Shown here in pieces: positions 10,665-58,470 of a stretch of DNA of 64,000 nucleotides. Within the stretch, counting starts at the first letter, position 1, and every line of letters begins with the position of its first letter. Source of the DNA: Cellulomonas composti. Lineage in GTDB: Bacteria; Actinomycetota; Actinomycetes; Actinomycetales; Cellulomonadaceae. The notes under the pieces were generated by a model that was not told the origin of the DNA, ran no database searches, and saw only the letters and a program-made list of their open reading frames with translations. A program made the translations under genes and the position numbers. Location: positions 1 through 64,000 of the forward strand of contig NZ_BJWG01000002.1 of NCBI RefSeq assembly GCF_007990245.1, given 5' to 3'.

Positions 10665-12134
10665 ATGACCACCACCACGCACACGTCGAGCGGCGCGGGC
10701 CTGGCGAGCGACGTGAAGGAGCCGCGTGACGTGAAGGACATCGCTCCGGGCACGCCCGACCCGCAGTCGACGGGCACGCAGACCGCCGGCGCGCAGCCGG
10801 CCGGCACGCAAGCCGCGGGCGCGCAGCCGGCCGGCGCCCAGACCGTCGGCACGCGCACGGCCGGCACGGAGAGCGCCGGCACCAGCGCCGGTACTCCGGT
10901 GGCCGAGCCGCTCGGCAGCCGCTTCACGGCCCTGCTCACCGTGACCGGCCTGGCCAACCTCGGCGACGGCATCGTCCAGATGGGTGCGCCGCTCGTCGCC
11001 CTCACGCTCACCCGCTCACCCGCGCAGATCGCGCTGCTCACGGCGGCCACCTGGCTGCCGTGGCTCGTGCTCGGTCTCGTCGGCGGCGTGGTGGTCGACC
11101 GCACCGACCGTCGGCGCACGCAGATCGTCGCGCTGCTCGGCCGCGCGGTGCTCCTGGCGGCCGGCGCGGCGTTGGTCGCGAGCGGCCGGCTGTCCATGCC
11201 CGTGCTCGTCGTGCTCGTGCTGCTGTACGGCGTGACGGAGGTCTTCGCCGACCTCGCGCAGAGCTCGATCGTCCCCGACCTCGTGCCGCGCAGCCGCCTG
11301 CAGGCCGCCAACGGGCGCGTGCTCGCGGTGCAGCAGGTGACCAACACCTTCGTCGGGAGCCCGGTCGCGGGCGCGCTGCTCGCGCTCGGCGCCGCGTGGG
11401 TGCTCGGCATCCCGGCCGCGCTGGCCGTCGCGGCCGTGCTCGTGCTGGTGCGCGGCATCCGCGGCCACTACCGCGCCGAGCGCACCGAGCCCACCGCCGC
11501 GATCGCCGACGTCCGCGAGGGCGTCAGCTACGTCGTGCACCATCCCGTGCAGCGGCCGTTCGTCATCGCCGGTTCGGTGATGAACATGGCGAGCACCGGC
11601 TACATGGCGGTGTTCGTGCTGTGGGTGATCGGGCCCGGGTCGCGGATGGGCATGCAGCCCGAGCACTACCCGTTGCTCGCGACGATCCTCGCGGTCGGCG
11701 CCGTCCTTGGCAGCCTGCTCACCGAGCGCCTCGTGCGCGCGCTGCCCGAGCTCGTCGTGATGTACGGCTGCTGGCTCGTCGTCGGGCCGCTGCTGCTCGT
11801 GCCGGTCCTGGTGCCCACGGTGCCGGCGCTCGGGGTCGTGCTGTTCCTCGTCGGGTTCACCAACACGATCGGCAACACGATCTCGCAGTCGCTGCGGCAG
11901 CGCGTCGTGCCCCGCGCTCTGCTCGGCCGTGCGGCAGGTGCCGGCCGCACGCTCGCCTACGGCCTGATGCCCGTCGGGGCGCTCGTCGCCGGTGTGTGCG
12001 CCGAGCAGTGGGGCATCGCCGCCGTGCTCGTCGGCGCAGCGATCCTCACCGCCGCCGCCGCGATCTACCCCACGCTCACGGTCCACAAGAGCACGGTCGA
12101 GGCAGCCGAACAAGCCAACCCCGACTCCCCCTGA
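10665..12134 (+). CDS. MFS transporter with repetitive N-terminal tail
   Basis: This 489-residue major facilitator has about 12 hydrophobic segments beginning near residue 85. GGVVVDRTDRRRTQIV is the classic loop 2-3 motif A, and LVPRSRLQAANGR is typical of MFS drug or siderophore exporters. The cytoplasmic N-terminal tail of about 80 residues carries five-residue repeats (AGAQP, AGTQA, AGAQT, VGTRT and similar), which is unusual for the family. The ATG at 10665 has GGGAGA upstream. The divergent repressor suggests substrate-induced efflux. Substrate unknown. Confidence 0.87.
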   Translation: MTTTTHTSSGAGLASDVKEPRDVKDIAPGTPDPQSTGTQTAGAQPAGTQAAGAQPAGAQTVGTRTAGTESAGTSAGTPVAEPLGSRFTALLTVTGLANLGDGIVQMGAPLVALTLTRSPAQIALLTAATWLPWLVLGLVGGVVVDRTDRRRTQIVALLGRAVLLAAGAALVASGRLSMPVLVVLVLLYGVTEVFADLAQSSIVPDLVPRSRLQAANGRVLAVQQVTNTFVGSPVAGALLALGAAWVLGIPAALAVAAVLVLVRGIRGHYRAERTEPTAAIADVREGVSYVVHHPVQRPFVIAGSVMNMASTGYMAVFVLWVIGPGSRMGMQPEHYPLLATILAVGAVLGSLLTERLVRALPELVVMYGCWLVVGPLLLVPVLVPTVPALGVVLFLVGFTNTIGNTISQSLRQRVVPRALLGRAAGAGRTLAYGLMPVGALVAGVCAEQWGIAAVLVGAAILTAAAAIYPTLTVHKSTVEAAEQANPDSP

Positions 12135-12142
12135 CCCCCACC

Positions 12143-12829
12143 GGAGCAGTCCACGGCGGCTACGGACCCACCCACCGTCCACGGACACCGCGAACGCCCA
12201 CGGACCCCGCGCCGGAGCGGTCCGTAGACGCTGCGGGTGTCCGTGGACGCTCCGGCTGTCCGCAGACGACGCAACGGACCGTCGCCGACGCATGGGCCCG
12301 CACCGGAGCAGTCCACGGTGGCTACGCGCCCACCCAGCGTCCACGGACACCGCGAACGTCCACGGACCCCGCGCCGCAGCGGTCCGTAGACGCTCCGGGT
12401 GTCCGTGGGTGCTGCGGGTGTCCGCAGACGACGCGACGGACCACCGGCGACGCACGGGCCCGCGCTGGAGCAGTCCACGGCGGCTACGGACCCACCCAAC
12501 GTCCACGGACACCGCGAACGCCCACGGACCCCGCGCCGGAGCGGTCCGCAGACGCCCCGGCTGTCCGTGGACGCTCCGGCTGTCCGCAGACGACGCGACG
12601 GACCACCGGCGACGCACGGCCCGCGCCGGAGCAGTCCACGGCGGCTACGGACCCACCCAGCGTCCACGGACACCGCGAACGTCCACGGACCCCGCGCCGG
12701 AGCGGTCCGCAGACGCTGCGGGTGTCCGTGGGCGCTGCGGGGGTCCGTGGGCGACGCAACGGACCACCGCCGACGCGCAGGCCCGCGCCGGAGCAGTCCG
12801 CAGGCGCTCCGGGGGCTGTGGGCGCCCGG
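12143..12829. repeat. Tandem array of 162-bp units
   Basis: GGAGCAGTCC starts at 12143, 12305, 12467, 12628 and 12790, giving units of 162, 162, 161 and 162 bases plus a partial fifth copy. Each unit is dense in inverted motifs such as GTCCACGGAC and GTCCGTGGAC, or GTCCGCAGAC and GTCCGTAGAC, so the array can fold into many hairpins. It fills the space between the convergent MFS and purA 3' ends (12135-12861). Several frames stay open only because 162 is divisible by 3; the 161-base unit shifts frame, so I treat the array as non-coding. Related motifs recur at 58331-58470. Confidence 0.85.
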
Positions 12830-12861
12830 GGGTCTGGGCGGGTTGCCGTGGAGGGGGTGGG

Positions 12862-14253
<1,392 letters not shown>

Positions 14254-21715: not shown

Positions 21716-21794
21716 CCGTCCCGTTCGTCGGGGCCGTTCGTCGGGGCCTTGTTCGTCGGGACCGTTCGTCGGGGCCGTTCGTCGGGGCCGTTCG
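21716..21794. repeat. TTCGTCGGG minisatellite between convergent genes
   Basis: GTTCGTCGGG followed by GCC, ACC or GCCTT occurs five to six times, filling the entire space between the convergent HAD and lemA genes. The unit is 12-16 bases. The same core appears at 24012-24118, 25789-25890 and 32097-32145. No gene or clear hairpin was seen. Confidence 0.8.
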
Positions 21795-22352
21795 TCAGAA
21801 CTGGACGTCGGGCGCCTGGCGGACCTGCGGGTCCGCGACCTCGAAGTACTCGGCCCGCTCGAAGTGGAACATCCCGGCGATCACGTTCGCCGGGAACGAC
21901 TCGACCTTGGTGTTCAGGGTCCGCACGTTCGCGTTGTAGTAGCGGCGCGACGCCGCGATCCGGTCCTCCGTGGCAGTCAGCTCGGCCTGGAGCTGCTGGA
22001 AGTTCTCGCTCGCGCGCAGCACCGGGTAGTTCTCCGCGACGGCGAACAGCCGTCCCAGCGCCTGCGTGAGCACGTTCTCCTGCTGCGCCTGCTCGGCGGG
22101 CGACGAGCCCGCACCCGCGGCCGCGGCGCGCGCCTGCGTGACCTCGTCGAACACGCCCCGCTCGTGCGCGGCGTAGCCCTTGACGGTCTCGACGAGGTTC
22201 GGGATCAGGTCGTGCCGACGGTGCAGCTCGACATCGATCTGCCGCCACGCCTCCTGCACGAGGTTGCGCAGCTTGACCAGGCCGTTGTACTGCGAGACGG
22301 CCCACAGCCCGACGACGACGATCAGTACGACGACGATGACGGCGAAGATCAC
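21795..22352 (-). CDS. LemA family protein
   Basis: This 185-residue protein has one N-terminal transmembrane helix (IFAVIVVVLIVVVGLWAV) followed by the LemA helical bundle: YNGLVKLRNLVQEAWRQIDVE, RRHDLIPNLVETVKGY and ASRRYYNANVRTLN. LemA proteins are membrane-tethered coiled bundles of uncertain function, often paired with TPM-domain proteins that are absent here. The start is GTG 22352 with GGAAGGA upstream. The 3' end abuts the minisatellite. Confidence 0.93.
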   Translation of the reverse strand: MIFAVIVVVLIVVVGLWAVSQYNGLVKLRNLVQEAWRQIDVELHRRHDLIPNLVETVKGYAAHERGVFDEVTQARAAAAGAGSSPAEQAQQENVLTQALGRLFAVAENYPVLRASENFQQLQAELTATEDRIAASRRYYNANVRTLNTKVESFPANVIAGMFHFERAEYFEVADPQVRQAPDVQF

Positions 22353-24011: not shown

Positions 24012-24116
24012 CGGGTTCGTCGGGCCGGTTCGTCGGGCCGGTTCGTCGGGCTGGTTCGTCGGGCTGGTTCGTCGGGCTGGTTCGTCGGGCGGGATCGTCG
24101 GGCGGGATCGTCGGGA
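24012..24116. repeat. 12-bp tandem minisatellite
   Basis: GGTTCGTCGGGC repeats about seven times in register from 24012 (variants end GGCC or GGCT), followed by two GGATCGTCGGGC units. It ends exactly at the stop codon of the beta-helix gene (24117). Minus-strand frames read through it as Pro-Asp-Glu-Pro runs, but it lies past the stop. Confidence 0.85.
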
Positions 24117-25627: not shown

Positions 25628-27724
25628 GTGCTTCCGGACGACGACCTTGCGCCGGGCGAGCCGTGGCCCGACGAGCCGCCGTTCGACCCGTTCTACGACG
25701 ACGCCCCACCCGATACGGCGGACTGGCACGGCGTCCCGCACGACGAGGGCTCGTCGGAGCTGGCCGCAGCCGTCGCCGCGAGCGTCTCGCGCGGCTCGTC
25801 GGGTGCGAGGCGGGGCTCGTCGGGTACCGCGCGTTCGTCGGGTACCGCGCGTTCGTCGGGTACTGCGCGTTCGTCGGGTCCGGCCGGACGTCCGACCCCC
25901 GGCACGTCGGAGGCGCCCCTCGAGGTGCTGCGCCGGGTGTGGGGGTACGACGAGTTCCGCGGCGAGCAGTCGGAGATCATCTCGACGGTCGTGGCGGGCG
26001 GGGACGCCCTGGTGCTGATGCCGACCGGCGGCGGCAAGTCGCTGTGCTACCAGGTGCCCGCGCTGGTGCGCGAGGGCACGGGCGTCGTCGTCTCCCCGCT
26101 GATCGCGCTCATGCAGGACCAGGTCGACGCGCTGTCCGCGCTCGGTGTGCGTGCCGGGTTCCTCAACTCGACGCAGCAGGCGTTCCAGCGCCGCGAGGTC
26201 GAGGACGCGTTCCTGGCCGGTGAGCTCGACCTGCTCTACCTGGCGCCCGAGCGGCTCAACGTGCCGGATACGGTGGACCTCCTCACGCGCGGGCACGTCG
26301 CGCTGTTCGCGATCGACGAGGCGCACTGCGTGTCGCAGTGGGGGCACGACTTCCGGCCCGACTACCTGCGCCTGTCGATGCTCCACGAGCGGTGGCCCGG
26401 CGTGCCGCGCATCGCACTGACGGCCACCGCGACCGCCGCGACGCACCGCGAGATCGCCGAGCGGCTGCAGCTCGAGGACGCCCGGCACTTCGTGGCGAGC
26501 TTCGACCGGCCGAACATCCAGTACCGGATCGCCCCGAAAGACAACCCGCGCGCGCAGCTGCTCGACGTGCTGCGCACCGAGCACCCGGGCGAGGCGGGGA
26601 TCGTGTACTGCCTCTCGCGGGCGTCGGTCGAGCAGACCGCCGCGTGGCTGGTCACCCAGGGCATCGACGCCATGCCGTACCACGCGGGTCTCGACCGCGG
26701 GGTGCGCGCGCACAACCAGGCACGGTTCCTGCGCGAGGACGGTGTCGTGATGGTCGCGACCATCGCGTTCGGCATGGGGATCGACAAGCCCGACGTGCGG
26801 TTCGTCGCCCACCTCGACCTGCCCAAGTCCGTCGAGGGCTACTACCAGGAGACCGGCCGCGCCGGCCGCGACGGCCTGCCGTCGACCGCGTGGATGGCCT
26901 ACGGCCTCGCGGACGTCGTCCAGCAGCGGCGGCTCATCGACACCTCCGAGGGCGACGCCACGCACCGTCGTCGGCTCACGCAGCACCTCGACGCGATGCT
27001 CGCGCTGTGCGAGACCGTGTCGTGCCGGCGGGTGCAGCTGCTCAACTACTTCGGCCAGGCCTCGCAGGCGTGCGGCAACTGCGACACCTGCCTGGTCCCC
27101 CCGACCACCTGGGACGGCACGGTCGCGGCGCAGAAGCTGCTCTCGACCGTCGCCCGCATGGCCCAGCGTGGGCAGCGCTACGGCGTCGGGCACGTCGTCG
27201 ACGTGCTGCGCGGCAAGCGCACGCCGCGGGTCGCGCAGCTCCGGCACGACGACCTGTCGACGTTCGGGATCGGGGAGGAGCTCTCCGACGGCGAGTGGCG
27301 TGGTGTGGTCCGCCAGCTCGTCGCCGCGGAGCTGCTCGCCGTCGACACCGAGGGCTACGGCACCCTGCAGCTCACGGACGCGTCCGGCGAGGTGCTGCGC
27401 GGTGAGCGCACCGTCGCGATGCGTCGCGAACCGGAACGGACCCGCACCCGCCGCGCGTCCTCCTCCGGCGGCTCGAGCACGCCCAAGGCCGCGGTCGACC
27501 TCGATGACGACGATGCGGCGCTCTTCGAGCGGCTGCGCGAGTGGCGCGCCGGTGCGGCCAAGGAACAGGGAGTCCCGGCCTACGTCGTGTTCCACGACGC
27601 CACGCTGCGCGAGATCGCCCAGCGCCGCCCGTCGACCCTCGAGTCGCTCGGCACCATCAGCGGCATCGGCGCCACCAAGCTCGACCGCTACGGCGCCGGC
27701 GTCCTGGAGACGGTCGCGGAGTAG
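25628..27724 (+). CDS. recQ: ATP-dependent DNA helicase RecQ with N-terminal repeat tail
   Basis: RecQ unwinds DNA 3'-5' in recombination and fork repair. The 698-residue protein has an acidic N-terminal tail of about 90 residues including Ser-Ser-Gly-Thr-Ala-Arg repeats, then LMPTGGGKSLCYQVPAL (Walker A), IDEAHCVSQWGHDFRPDY, IALTATAT, FGMGIDKPDVR and QETGRAGRDG. Zinc-site cysteines (SCRR...ACGNCDTC) follow, then a winged-helix RQC region and an HRDC domain at the end. The GTG at 25628 follows TAGGGT by 6 bases (leaderless). The repeat tail is unusual and shares its DNA unit with nearby intergenic minisatellites. Confidence 0.95.
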   Translation: MLPDDDLAPGEPWPDEPPFDPFYDDAPPDTADWHGVPHDEGSSELAAAVAASVSRGSSGARRGSSGTARSSGTARSSGTARSSGPAGRPTPGTSEAPLEVLRRVWGYDEFRGEQSEIISTVVAGGDALVLMPTGGGKSLCYQVPALVREGTGVVVSPLIALMQDQVDALSALGVRAGFLNSTQQAFQRREVEDAFLAGELDLLYLAPERLNVPDTVDLLTRGHVALFAIDEAHCVSQWGHDFRPDYLRLSMLHERWPGVPRIALTATATAATHREIAERLQLEDARHFVASFDRPNIQYRIAPKDNPRAQLLDVLRTEHPGEAGIVYCLSRASVEQTAAWLVTQGIDAMPYHAGLDRGVRAHNQARFLREDGVVMVATIAFGMGIDKPDVRFVAHLDLPKSVEGYYQETGRAGRDGLPSTAWMAYGLADVVQQRRLIDTSEGDATHRRRLTQHLDAMLALCETVSCRRVQLLNYFGQASQACGNCDTCLVPPTTWDGTVAAQKLLSTVARMAQRGQRYGVGHVVDVLRGKRTPRVAQLRHDDLSTFGIGEELSDGEWRGVVRQLVAAELLAVDTEGYGTLQLTDASGEVLRGERTVAMRREPERTRTRRASSSGGSSTPKAAVDLDDDDAALFERLREWRAGAAKEQGVPAYVVFHDATLREIAQRRPSTLESLGTISGIGATKLDRYGAGVLETVAE
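25789..25890 (+). repeat. Coding minisatellite in recQ
   Basis: Units of about 18 bases built on TTCGTCGGG or CTCGTCGGG (for example CGTTCGTCGGGTACCG) repeat about five times and encode the SSGTAR tail of RecQ. The core matches the intergenic arrays at 21716-21794 and 24012-24116, so the same sequence has expanded within a gene. Confidence 0.8.
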
Positions 27725-32074: not shown

Positions 32075-34008
32075 ACGTCCTCCTGGGTCTCGTCGCGCGC
32101 CGGTTCGTCGGGAGCCGGTTCGTCGGGAGCTGGTTCGTCGGGCGAGAGGTCGATCGGGGTCCGGCCGGACAGGCCGGCGGCGAGCAACGCGGCCATCGCG
32201 TCGTTCATCACGGCCGCCTCGCGGGCGCGCAGGGGCTCCCCAGCGAGCAGCACCGCGGTCACGTACAGGCTGCGGATGCCCGCGGCGAGCACCGGGTCGT
32301 CCGGCCGCGCGGTCAGCAGCAGCCGCACGGTCGGGTTGGCATCGTTGACGACGAGCCTGCGGGCCGGCTCGTCGGACCCGTCGGCGAACCCCGCGAGGAT
32401 GCCTCCCCACAGGTCAGGTTCTGCGGCGACCGTGCGGCGCACCTCGCCGCGGTACTGCCCGTCGCGGTCCTCCAGCAGGACAGCCGGGACCTCGGCGGGC
32501 TCGAACGAGCGCACGACGAGGTCGCAGTCCAGCGGCCGCACCACGGCGGCAGCCGCCTGCAGCTGGTCGAGCACCTCGAGCTCGCGCAACGGCTCGAGCG
32601 GCGCGAGCACCTGCGCGACGTCCTGCGCACGGAGCTCGCGGACCCGCCAGCCCGGGCGGCGTGCGAGGCGTGCGAGCAGGTCGTCGTCGTACACGTAGCC
32701 GGCGTTGACGACAGTGATCCCCTGGGCGCGCGCGACCGGCGCGACCCGTCGGAAGTCCTCCACGCGGCTCGTGTAGAGCACCTCACCGTGCGCGTCGCGC
32801 ACGTCCGCGAGCGTCACCGCGCCGTCCGTCGTCTCGAACGGCAGCACCTTCGCGACGAGGTCGAGCACCTCGTCGTCCACCACCGCGAGCGAGCGCAACG
32901 CGAGATGGTGCGTCCCGACGAGCTCGCGGCTGCGGACCGACGACGACGACGACAGCGTGCGGATCGTCCACTCGCGCACCTGCGCCGCGAGCGCCTCCTG
33001 GGTCGCGAGCAGCGCGTCGTCGACGTAGAGCTGCTCACGCGAGGCGGTGGGTCGCAGCACGCTCGTGTCGACCACGCAGCGCACGAAGAACGCCCACTCC
33101 GGGAGCAGGTCGTCGACGTGCGACCCGAGCAGCATGCGCTTGACGTACACGCGGTGCTTGCGGCCCGCGCCCGCGGGTACCGCCGTCGGCAGGACGAACG
33201 CGACTCCGCTGAGGCCCGCGACCGGCACGTCCAGCTCGATGCTCGCGAGCGGCGTGAAGCCGAGCGCGCGCTCGCAGTGTGCCGCGAGCGCGCTCTCGCG
33301 CGCACCCTCGTCGGGAAAGGTCCTGTGCCACGGCAACGTCGGCTCGGACACCCGGCGCCACGCGGTCCCCGAACCCTCGCCGCCCGGCAACGGCACCTGG
33401 ACAGCCACGTCCACCGGCAGCAGCCCGCCGAACTCCTCCGCGAGCGCCACCACCGTCTCGGCCGCAAGCCAGTGCTCGGCGTCGCGGCGCGCGCGCAGGC
33501 GCACTGTGCTGCCGACCGGCACGTCGTCGTCCGCCAGCACCTCGAGGTCGTAGCGGCCGTCAGCGTGCCCGACCCACCGCACCGGCGGCGCCAGCGGATC
33601 CGCGGCCGAGCGCGAGACCAGCTCGATCTCGTCCGCCACCATGAACGCCGAGAGCAGCCCGATGCCGAACTGCCCGAGGAACTCCTCGCGGCCCAGCCCC
33701 AGGTCGAGGTCGCGCTTCGACGAGCGGCCGACCGTCGCGAGCAGCTCCTGCGCCTGCGCGAAGGTCAGCCCGATCCCCGTGTCCGTGACCTCGAGCGAAC
33801 CGTCCGGACCCGGCCGCAGGCGCACCCGCGCGGGCGCGTCCGGGTCGAGCGCCCGGCGCGCGGTGATCGCGTCGACACCGTTCTGCAGCAGCTCGCGCAC
33901 GTACACGCGCGGCCCCGAGTACAGGTGCCGCGCCAGCAGGTCGACGATGCCGCGCAGGTCGACCTGGAAGGCCTGGCCCCGCGCAGCGCCGTCGTCGGTG
34001 GCGTTCAG
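32071..34008 (-). CDS. HSP90-family ATPase (short actinobacterial type)
   Basis: This 645-residue GHKL ATPase matches the HtpG-like group: FQVDLRGIVDLLARHLYSG, VYVRELLQNGVDAITARR (ATP-site Glu/Asn), EVTDTGIGLTF, TVGRSSKRD and FLGQFGIGLLSAFMVADEI. It diverges from classical HtpG in the middle and C-terminal domains. The tail is acidic, with Pro-Asp-Glu-Pro-Ala repeats and an ETQEDV end. No ATG, GTG or TTG fits: CTG at 34008 overlaps the YbjN stop (CTGA) with GAGG upstream and gives the family's usual N-terminus, so a CTG start is likely. It forms an operon with YbjN and TPR genes. Confidence 0.88.
   Translation of the reverse strand: MNATDDGAARGQAFQVDLRGIVDLLARHLYSGPRVYVRELLQNGVDAITARRALDPDAPARVRLRPGPDGSLEVTDTGIGLTFAQAQELLATVGRSSKRDLDLGLGREEFLGQFGIGLLSAFMVADEIELVSRSAADPLAPPVRWVGHADGRYDLEVLADDDVPVGSTVRLRARRDAEHWLAAETVVALAEEFGGLLPVDVAVQVPLPGGEGSGTAWRRVSEPTLPWHRTFPDEGARESALAAHCERALGFTPLASIELDVPVAGLSGVAFVLPTAVPAGAGRKHRVYVKRMLLGSHVDDLLPEWAFFVRCVVDTSVLRPTASREQLYVDDALLATQEALAAQVREWTIRTLSSSSSVRSRELVGTHHLALRSLAVVDDEVLDLVAKVLPFETTDGAVTLADVRDAHGEVLYTSRVEDFRRVAPVARAQGITVVNAGYVYDDDLLARLARRPGWRVRELRAQDVAQVLAPLEPLRELEVLDQLQAAAAVVRPLDCDLVVRSFEPAEVPAVLLEDRDGQYRGEVRRTVAAEPDLWGGILAGFADGSDEPARRLVVNDANPTVRLLLTARPDDPVLAAGIRSLYVTAVLLAGEPLRAREAAVMNDAMAALLAAGLSGRTPIDLSPDEPAPDEPAPDEPARDETQEDV
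32097..32145 (-). repeat. Minisatellite encoding the Hsp90 tail
   Basis: GGTTCGTCGGGAGCC-type units (15 bases) repeat three times, encoding Pro-Asp-Glu-Pro-Ala. The unit core TTCGTCGGG is the same as in the intergenic arrays and in recQ. Confidence 0.75.
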
Positions 34009-47639: not shown

Positions 47640-47850
47640 CGAGTCGCGCCCGCTCGCGCCCGCCGACTCACCCTCTCCGACTCACGCCCACCGACTCACC
47701 CTCGCCCGCTCACGCCGCCGCTCACGCCGCCGAGTCACGCCCGCCGACTCACGCCCGCCGACTCACCCTCGCCCGCTCACGCCGCCGCTCACACCGTCGA
47801 GTCACGCCCGCCGGTCACGCCGCCGAGTCACACCCGCCGGCTCACCTGCG
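47640..47850. repeat. Degenerate short-period repeat
   Basis: CGCCGACTCACCC, CCGCTCACGCCG and similar units of about 12 bases recur throughout the space between the convergent HNH and trmL genes. No gene or specific hairpin is clear. It may be a slippage-derived array. Cores such as GACTCACGCCCGCCG appear twice exactly. Confidence 0.65.
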
Positions 47851-58263: not shown

Positions 58264-58330
58264 GCTCACCTCCGTCGGCGCATCGTGTCACTTCGGCGCA
58301 TCGTGTCACGCCGGCGCCCCGTCGGCCGCC

Positions 58331-58470
58331 CATCCACGGACCCCCGCAACGCCTACGGACCGCTGGCGCGTCTGCGGACCCTGCCATCGCGGGGTCCGCA
58401 GACATCCACGACGTCCGCAGACACCGGCGGGGTCCGCAGATGTCGACGGGGTCCGTGGGAGTGCAGGCGA
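58331..58470. repeat. Dispersed GTCCGCAGAC-type repeat
   Basis: TCCACGGACC, CTACGGACCG, GGTCCGCAGAC, CGTCCGCAGACACCGG and GGGGTCCGCAGATG recur in a 140-base stretch between two minus-strand genes. The motifs match those in the 162-bp array at 12143-12829 but without a regular period. This suggests a shared repeat family or a common process. Confidence 0.7.

Follow-up and report, generated by a model that had tools for sequence, protein, structure and literature searches.

The window analysed here is a stretch of 64,000 nucleotides from Cellulomonas composti. In it, a 727-bp gap (12135-12861) separates two convergent genes, named from the look of their sequences: one on the + strand, presumably encoding an MFS-type transporter (10665..12134; start codon uncertain), and one on the - strand which we take to be purA (adenylosuccinate synthetase, 12862..14148; ORF end at 12862). 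The gap is filled by four copies of a unit of approximately 162 bp and a remnant, with the stop codon of the transporter gene 6 bp ahead of the array. Tandem Repeats Finder run on the window placed the array at 12141-12799 (period 162, 4.1 copies, 90% matches). In register, the copies begin at 12133, 12295, 12457 and 12618 (steps of 162, 162 and 161 bp) and are 80-89% identical to the reference copy (n = 4); cut by hand, the units occupy 12141-12302, 12303-12464, 12465-12625 (161 bp) and 12626-12787, followed by a diverged remnant up to 12861. Four full units and a partial fifth between convergent genes are what the initial annotation of this DNA had described. It had also regarded the open frames in the array as misleading and the array as non-coding, and we agree: several frames are open across the array because 162 is divisible by 3, and a home-made codon-score gene caller placed no gene inside 12135-12861.

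The 162 bp are merely the spacing between duplicated whole elements, each of which contains a finer unit. The building block is a 10-bp core, RTC-YR-CGGAC, which recurs every 19 bp on one strand to form a left block; after a fixed step of 24 bp the same core starts on the opposite strand, again every 19 bp, forming a right block. The tandem array (12141..12861; no strand assigned to it or to the elements) consists of four such dyad elements and the diverged remnant. Element 1 (12158..12267) has left cores at 12158, 12177 and 12196 and right cores at 12220, 12239 and 12258 (pitch 19, centre step 24). Element 2 (12320..12429) has left cores at 12339 and 12358, that at 12320 being degraded, and right cores at 12382, 12401 (weaker) and 12420. 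Left and right cores lie at 12482, 12501, 12520 and 12544, 12563, 12582 in element 3 (12482..12591), and at 12643, 12662, 12681 and 12705, 12724, 12743 in element 4 (12643..12752), while the partial fifth copy (12788..12861) retains a single recognisable right-type core, at 12796. A second member of the family, single-copy and of the order LLLRRR, is located at 58330..58460, also flanked by convergent called genes. The motif GTCC-GYRGAC, on which the initial annotation had based the units, was read correctly but incompletely, the true block being a 19-bp unit in two opposed blocks; the 24-bp centre step and the second element in the window were likewise missing from it. Its suggestion of local copying holds, with the array made up of duplicates of a smaller-grained element.

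Other repeats were seen in the same window. Tandem arrays with units of 13-18 bp and a common TCGTCGGG lie at 21721-21812 and 24014-24115, each at the 3' end of a gene (in one case between called genes that converge), and at 25817-25879 and 32090-32142, both within called ORFs. At 47650-47845, a 14-bp/67-bp array of CTCACGCCCGCCGA (14.4 copies) fills the gap of two convergent called genes; it differs in sequence from the array at 12141-12861 and occupies the same kind of place. A seven-fold 15-bp repeat, GGCACGCAGACCGCC, is found at 10762-10882 in the N-terminal part of the transporter gene, which is A/G/T/Q-rich there.

Dispersal of the element in the C. composti genome

A search of the C. 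composti genome and of other Cellulomonas genomes, as proposed in the initial annotation, revealed about 20 sites with 212 cores in the former; among the latter, C. iranensis and Cellulomonas sp. B6 were found to carry elements of this kind. In C. composti, a DNA search gave 56 matches and a search with a sequence model 136 (E <= 1, both strands and fragments counted). We read 21 spans, selected by likeness to the window array and hence not a blind sample; the end of contig 17 and the start of contig 16 are probably halves of one site because their flanks map near each other in complete relatives. For core calling, one mismatch was allowed at most and no spacing requirement was imposed; same-strand steps were counted between neighbouring cores up to 45 bp apart. 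Same-strand steps were exactly 19 bp in 69/72 cases in left blocks and 58/66 in right blocks, where four of the eight exceptions measured 37-38 bp, and centre steps were exactly 24 bp in 32/33. Six core positions agreed in 205-211 of the 212 cores, an agreement favoured by one-mismatch calling. The two variable core bases were TG, CA, TA or GA in 187/212 cores and CG in only 6, although at this high GC content CG would presumably be frequent. Inverted core pairs 8-60 bp apart numbered 38 per strand, every place appearing on both strands (two of the 38 seem not to belong to the family, one at 279.5 kb of contig 2 and the other at 60.6 kb of contig 10), and direct core pairs at 19 bp numbered 59 (27 + 32); both are far above chance, with 0 in the reversed controls. 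Among 19 sites, identity was 97.9% at core positions. The two inner spacers were 48% and 46% identical, above the 33% and 31% expected from composition alone, and thus retain a loose consensus.

On contig 10, at 95-97 kb (L016, 2870-5240), two element arrays with stretches 85-96% alike lie in inverted orientation; the reading frame of the gene between them appears split, and the piece of it that was scanned had no Pfam match. Contigs 14 (end), 16 (start) and 17 (end) terminate in or beside elements, as do several contig ends of C. iranensis and sp. B6, and short-read assemblies seem to break at members of the family.

Gene context was evaluated with calls from the home-made codon scorer. Fully flanked C. 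composti sites (n = 18) were in convergent (6), tandem (11) and divergent (1) gaps, with three more cut by contig ends; the corresponding numbers were 1, 9 and 4 for placed elements of C. iranensis (n = 14) and 5, 14 and 4 for those of sp. B6 (n = 23). None of 43 elements in these sister species was within a called ORF (6 were at contig ends), and one of the 21 C. composti spans overlapped a called ORF, the start of which is doubtful (L020). Divergent gaps, in which no gene terminates, thus hold 9 of the 55 placed Cellulomonas elements (1/18 and 8/37), which are not all independent because the sisters have some of their elements in common as orthologues. Element-free gaps at the same sister loci had similar shares of divergent gaps (6/25 and 5/21). 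In tandem gaps the element was mostly closer to the stop codon than to the next start, often 20-70 bp after the stop. Proteins flanking the C. composti sites look like a mixture of housekeeping and metabolic genes; in a Pfam scan of 10 of the 38 for a cognate gene, four had no match at 1e-3, and the idea of a cognate gene beside the sites was dropped in view of this mixed content.

Occurrence and turnover in related species

Cellulomonas iranensis NBRC 101100 and Cellulomonas sp. B6 carry a variant form of the element at 19 and 27 places, respectively, according to a model built from, and trained on, eight sister elements. A core scan confirmed all but one place in C. iranensis and all but one incomplete place in sp. 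B6. The 24-bp centre was kept in 8/8 sister elements where core calls were free (it was imposed in the later full scan), a ninth locus examined with them proving to be no element, and the pitch was mixed, 19 and 20 bp. Exact 19-bp pairs were detected in 12 of 150 family genomes, namely C. composti, with 59 of them, and others with one or two places apiece. The centre pattern occurred in 7 of the 81 genus genomes, 15 times per strand in C. composti and once in each of the remaining ones. Model R1 gave weak hits in 57/81 genus genomes at E <= 0.01 (strict filters) and model R2 in 8/81 at E <= 5e-4; in a chained-core check of 48 loci from other genomes, none had a left block, a 24-bp centre and a right block with two cores a side. 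Outside C. composti, the genus and family screens gave clear arrays in C. iranensis and sp. B6 only, so that clear sets are confined to just three related species. In a congener (G020), the locus L075 combines a single left core with a pair of right cores at the 19-bp pitch, the step from left to right being 43 bp (24 + 19), and may be a decayed relative. At L035 (about 1430-1550; G124, another genus of the family) we noted about six head-to-tail 19-bp units of GGACCGATCTCGCGTGGAG and variants on one strand only, which share the pitch of 19 and GGACC, with no inverted block seen. L035 and L075 are possible outliers of the family.

At the level of the order, a four-CGGAC pattern with the steps of the family was present in 2 of 396 genomes (C. 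composti with 26 and C. iranensis with 12 per strand; the sample excluded sp. B6, and the reversed control was 0 in every row) and absent in its exact form from the other 394. Viral contigs gave 0 matches to the family pattern. In 84,980 species genomes, a set possibly not containing that of C. composti, the four-CGGAC pattern yielded 59 stretches. Of these, 34 belong to C. iranensis and sp. B6, 17 to Nostocoides jenkinsii and 8 are singles in eight other organisms. Three of the singles (L221, L243, L256) were hairpins of other make, those on the contigs L243 (Lentisphaerae) and L221 (Prevotellaceae) consisting of CGGAC/GTCCG repeats of about 10 bp; the remaining five were taken for chance in GC-rich sequence.

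N. jenkinsii is distant and is, among these 84,980 genomes, the only species outside the carriers with a comparable set, built on a different core, CGGACGCAATA. Its repeats resemble the Cellulomonas family in CGGAC, the 19-bp pitch (29 same-strand steps of 19), the 24-bp palindromic centre (14 centre steps fit 24) and dispersal, but the core is longer and different, spacers are often complementary and there are extra 31-bp steps (ten). Compensation was seen at 2 of 19 outward spacer positions (14/18 vs. 8.5 expected, p = 0.009; 12 vs. 7.9, p = 0.03). Two of the loci are inverted copies of each other, 0 of 16 placed elements were inside called genes, and their positions, given as contig ranges, leave no single gap along the chromosome. 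The two families may be related or convergent; CGGAC and the geometry were requirements of the query and hence no proof of common origin.

In 14 orthologous pairs of C. iranensis and sp. B6, the core differed at 14/324 positions (4.3%) and the rest of the element at 91/656 (13.9%; p = 2e-6), in a comparison biased by the need for both copies to match a core-based model. The 80-bp flanks differed at 484/1963 positions, several flanks aligning poorly; 6, 22 and 162 gapped positions, respectively, were set aside. One element of C. iranensis has no counterpart in the corresponding gap of sp. B6, and for another element the reverse is true, with no target-site duplication evident in these two empty/filled comparisons. 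Among the loci compared, the hrpA-tag neighbourhood is the only one firmly common to all three species, the sisters carrying extra genes between, and the neighbourhood of an antiporter is a possible second one common to C. composti and the sisters.

Candidate explanations for the family

The most economical mechanism for these data is a binding array at the DNA level, a REP-like selfish family ranking next. On sequence grounds we tentatively favour the dispersed dyad elements as cooperative binding sites for a putative protein, with the DNA itself being functional. Each 10-bp core would be bound by one subunit of a sequence-specific protein; at a pitch of 19 bp and a centre step of 24 bp the subunits would be in mutual contact and would converge symmetrically on the centre, and each site would load a cooperative protein patch at one of about 20 intergenic places. 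The window array would represent four local duplicates of the dispersed dyad element, multiplication at single sites presumably occurring by slippage or unequal crossing-over. The existence of the protein, its cooperativity and a role in organising or marking the chromosome are what we infer. The near-constant geometry of the 212 cores, core conservation among C. composti sites and between sister orthologues, and placement outside genes in convergent, tandem and divergent gaps all count for the binding array, as does the lack of arm compensation in C. composti and in the first eight sister elements, of a U-tract terminator at 12050-12950 and of above-threshold Rfam matches in the region. The 19/20 pitch variation in the sisters counts against it, since a rigid protein array should resist such variation, and so does the gain and loss of sites between species. 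A nucleoid-protein site, one of the roles suggested in the initial annotation, is kept as an option.

Less probably, the elements are a REP/BIME-like selfish or domesticated family, spread by a putative enzyme that recognises single strands or hairpins, with the core as recognition sequence, tolerated between genes and amplified locally. Such an origin would suit their dispersed, extragenic, dyad nature and species-specific consensus, the two cases of an element present in one sister species and absent from the other, the single neighbourhood (hrpA-tag) firmly common to the three species among the loci compared, and the local tandem copies together with the inverted copies on contig 10. However, a search for the RAYT-type domain Y1_Tnp (PF01797) gave 0 matches in C. 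composti while 5 of 14 control genomes were positive, the two empty sites have no clear target duplication, and spacers vary between sites while cores persist, unlike fresh master copies.

A bidirectional transcription terminator or 3'-end RNA hairpin appears unlikely. It would explain why elements in tandem gaps are often 20-70 bp downstream of a stop codon, and one report (PMC8355165) describes hairpin clusters near stop codons as terminators for which poly A/U trails are unnecessary. Folding of the + strand was better than that of shuffled sequences, with z = -2.3 against 200 shuffles in the case of a single copy and z = -5.9 against 20 in that of the array. In a gap-free alignment of C. 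composti elements (n = 31, 72 columns), all could fold, but arm compensation was absent: 75.8% of cells were paired vs. 77.6% in shuffles, 494 of 500 of which were as high or higher. Slid registers paired far less (32-41%), as expected from inverted cores. Pairing of spacers was at or below chance (34 elements), also at chance level in shifted registers (L2 with R1, L1 with R2), and so was pairing of the variable core bases, also with one element per site (19). Because arms, spacers and variable bases are at chance, the C. composti genome conserves sequence and spacing rather than a helix, and for this genome the RNA-hairpin reading was dropped. In the sisters, the first eight elements taken whole showed no compensation (416/500 shuffles) and spacers no compensatory signal. 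Weak compensation was present at the apex, at core position 2 (21/43 vs. 12.0 expected; p = 0.003 in a test of 28 positions that treated orthologous copies as separate), and among 17 symmetric elements the values at positions 2 and 4 were reached by 2 and 6 of 1000 shuffles. Together with that in Nostocoides, this weakly favours folding, against a protein array. No terminator with a GC stem and U-tract was detected in 12050-12950, and an Rfam search of the region at E up to 1 gave five matches, all far below gathering scores and three of them to one microRNA model. A terminator hairpin fits poorly because of the lack of arm covariation in C. composti, the lack of a U-tract terminator and the 9/55 elements between divergent genes; moreover, conservation extends to the core sequence, beyond pairing alone, and most related species lack the family. 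A structured RNA or transcription barrier, also proposed in the initial annotation, is on these grounds probably not the main role.

We also considered how the sites are distributed along the chromosome. Six of the 17 largest contigs are without a site, a number as expected (mean 6.2, p = 0.70), but these contigs total 1.54 Mb vs. 0.87 Mb expected (p = 0.008, 21 sites counted). An empty 568-kb contig spans the terminus, as determined from marker proteins mapped on complete congeners. The other empty contigs are in the terminus half (3, 7 and 15) or the origin half (6 and 12), and the site-bearing contigs 4 and 5 are also in the terminus half. With the origin assumed at coordinate 1, genome lengths rounded and some markers positioned differently among relatives, site distance from the origin was not uniform (KS p = 0.012; 20 sites, four placed via a neighbour's marker) and site density per contig dropped with distance (Spearman -0.60, p = 0.014, 16 contigs). 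Sites thus thin out toward the mapped terminus in a weak, exploratory gradient (p about 0.01) that was looked for after seeing the data. An actinobacterial chromosome-marking system of a kind not described before, in which a protein loaded on the inverted arrays of 19-bp pitch, at about 20 intergenic places that are origin-dense and terminus-free, would couple division or segregation to position in the manner of Noc or SlmA, is a long shot.

Finally, a neutral minisatellite of functionless slippage products is highly improbable: single-site arrays are multi-copy and alike within a site, and the window also has tandem arrays of unrelated sequence, but core, pitch and centre are the same across about 20 different sites and recur in the sister species, and the core is conserved between orthologues.

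To our knowledge, little is known about chromosome-organising sites in this high-GC group. A narrow-range family with near-constant spacing and a conserved core offers bait for a new DNA-binding protein, and the filled and empty sites in two sister species make gain, loss and function directly testable.

Comparison with known systems

In searches of open-licence PMC on repeats of Cellulomonas or Actinobacteria, on the core GTCCGCGGAC and on TATTGCGTCCG, no paper described this family by its title. Intrinsic terminators and hairpin clusters resemble it in their frequent location soon after stop codons and in their inverted repeats. The present family differs in having no U-tract (12050-12950), a sequence-specific core and members in divergent gaps. 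For nucleoid occlusion, one article (PMC4726725) gives around 70 NBS for Noc and about 24-52 SBS for SlmA, palindromic and under-represented near the terminus. The present family is similar in having tens of palindromic sites, and its own thinning toward the terminus is a weak, exploratory gradient; NBS (14 bp) and SBS are single palindromes, whereas the present sites are multi-core arrays.

According to PMC2817692, REP/BIME elements bind proteins and have been suggested to take part in organising the chromosome and in termination, and REPs usually exceed 100 copies. The Cellulomonas elements are similarly dispersed, extragenic, species-specific, composed of opposed units and multiplied locally. 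They differ in number (about 20 sites and 212 cores) and in their core RTC-YR-CGGAC, with no REP-type palindrome with a GTAG/GTGG head as in the REP sequences given there. Their blocks are ordered LLL-RRR with no regular alternation, although whole tandem elements do alternate block by block, and a RAYT-type gene was not found in the C. composti genome. Because head motif, RAYT gene (in C. composti) and alternation all fail, we did not file the family under REP/BIME; it acts like a multi-site binding array or a BIME, yet lies outside the REP/BIME features tested.
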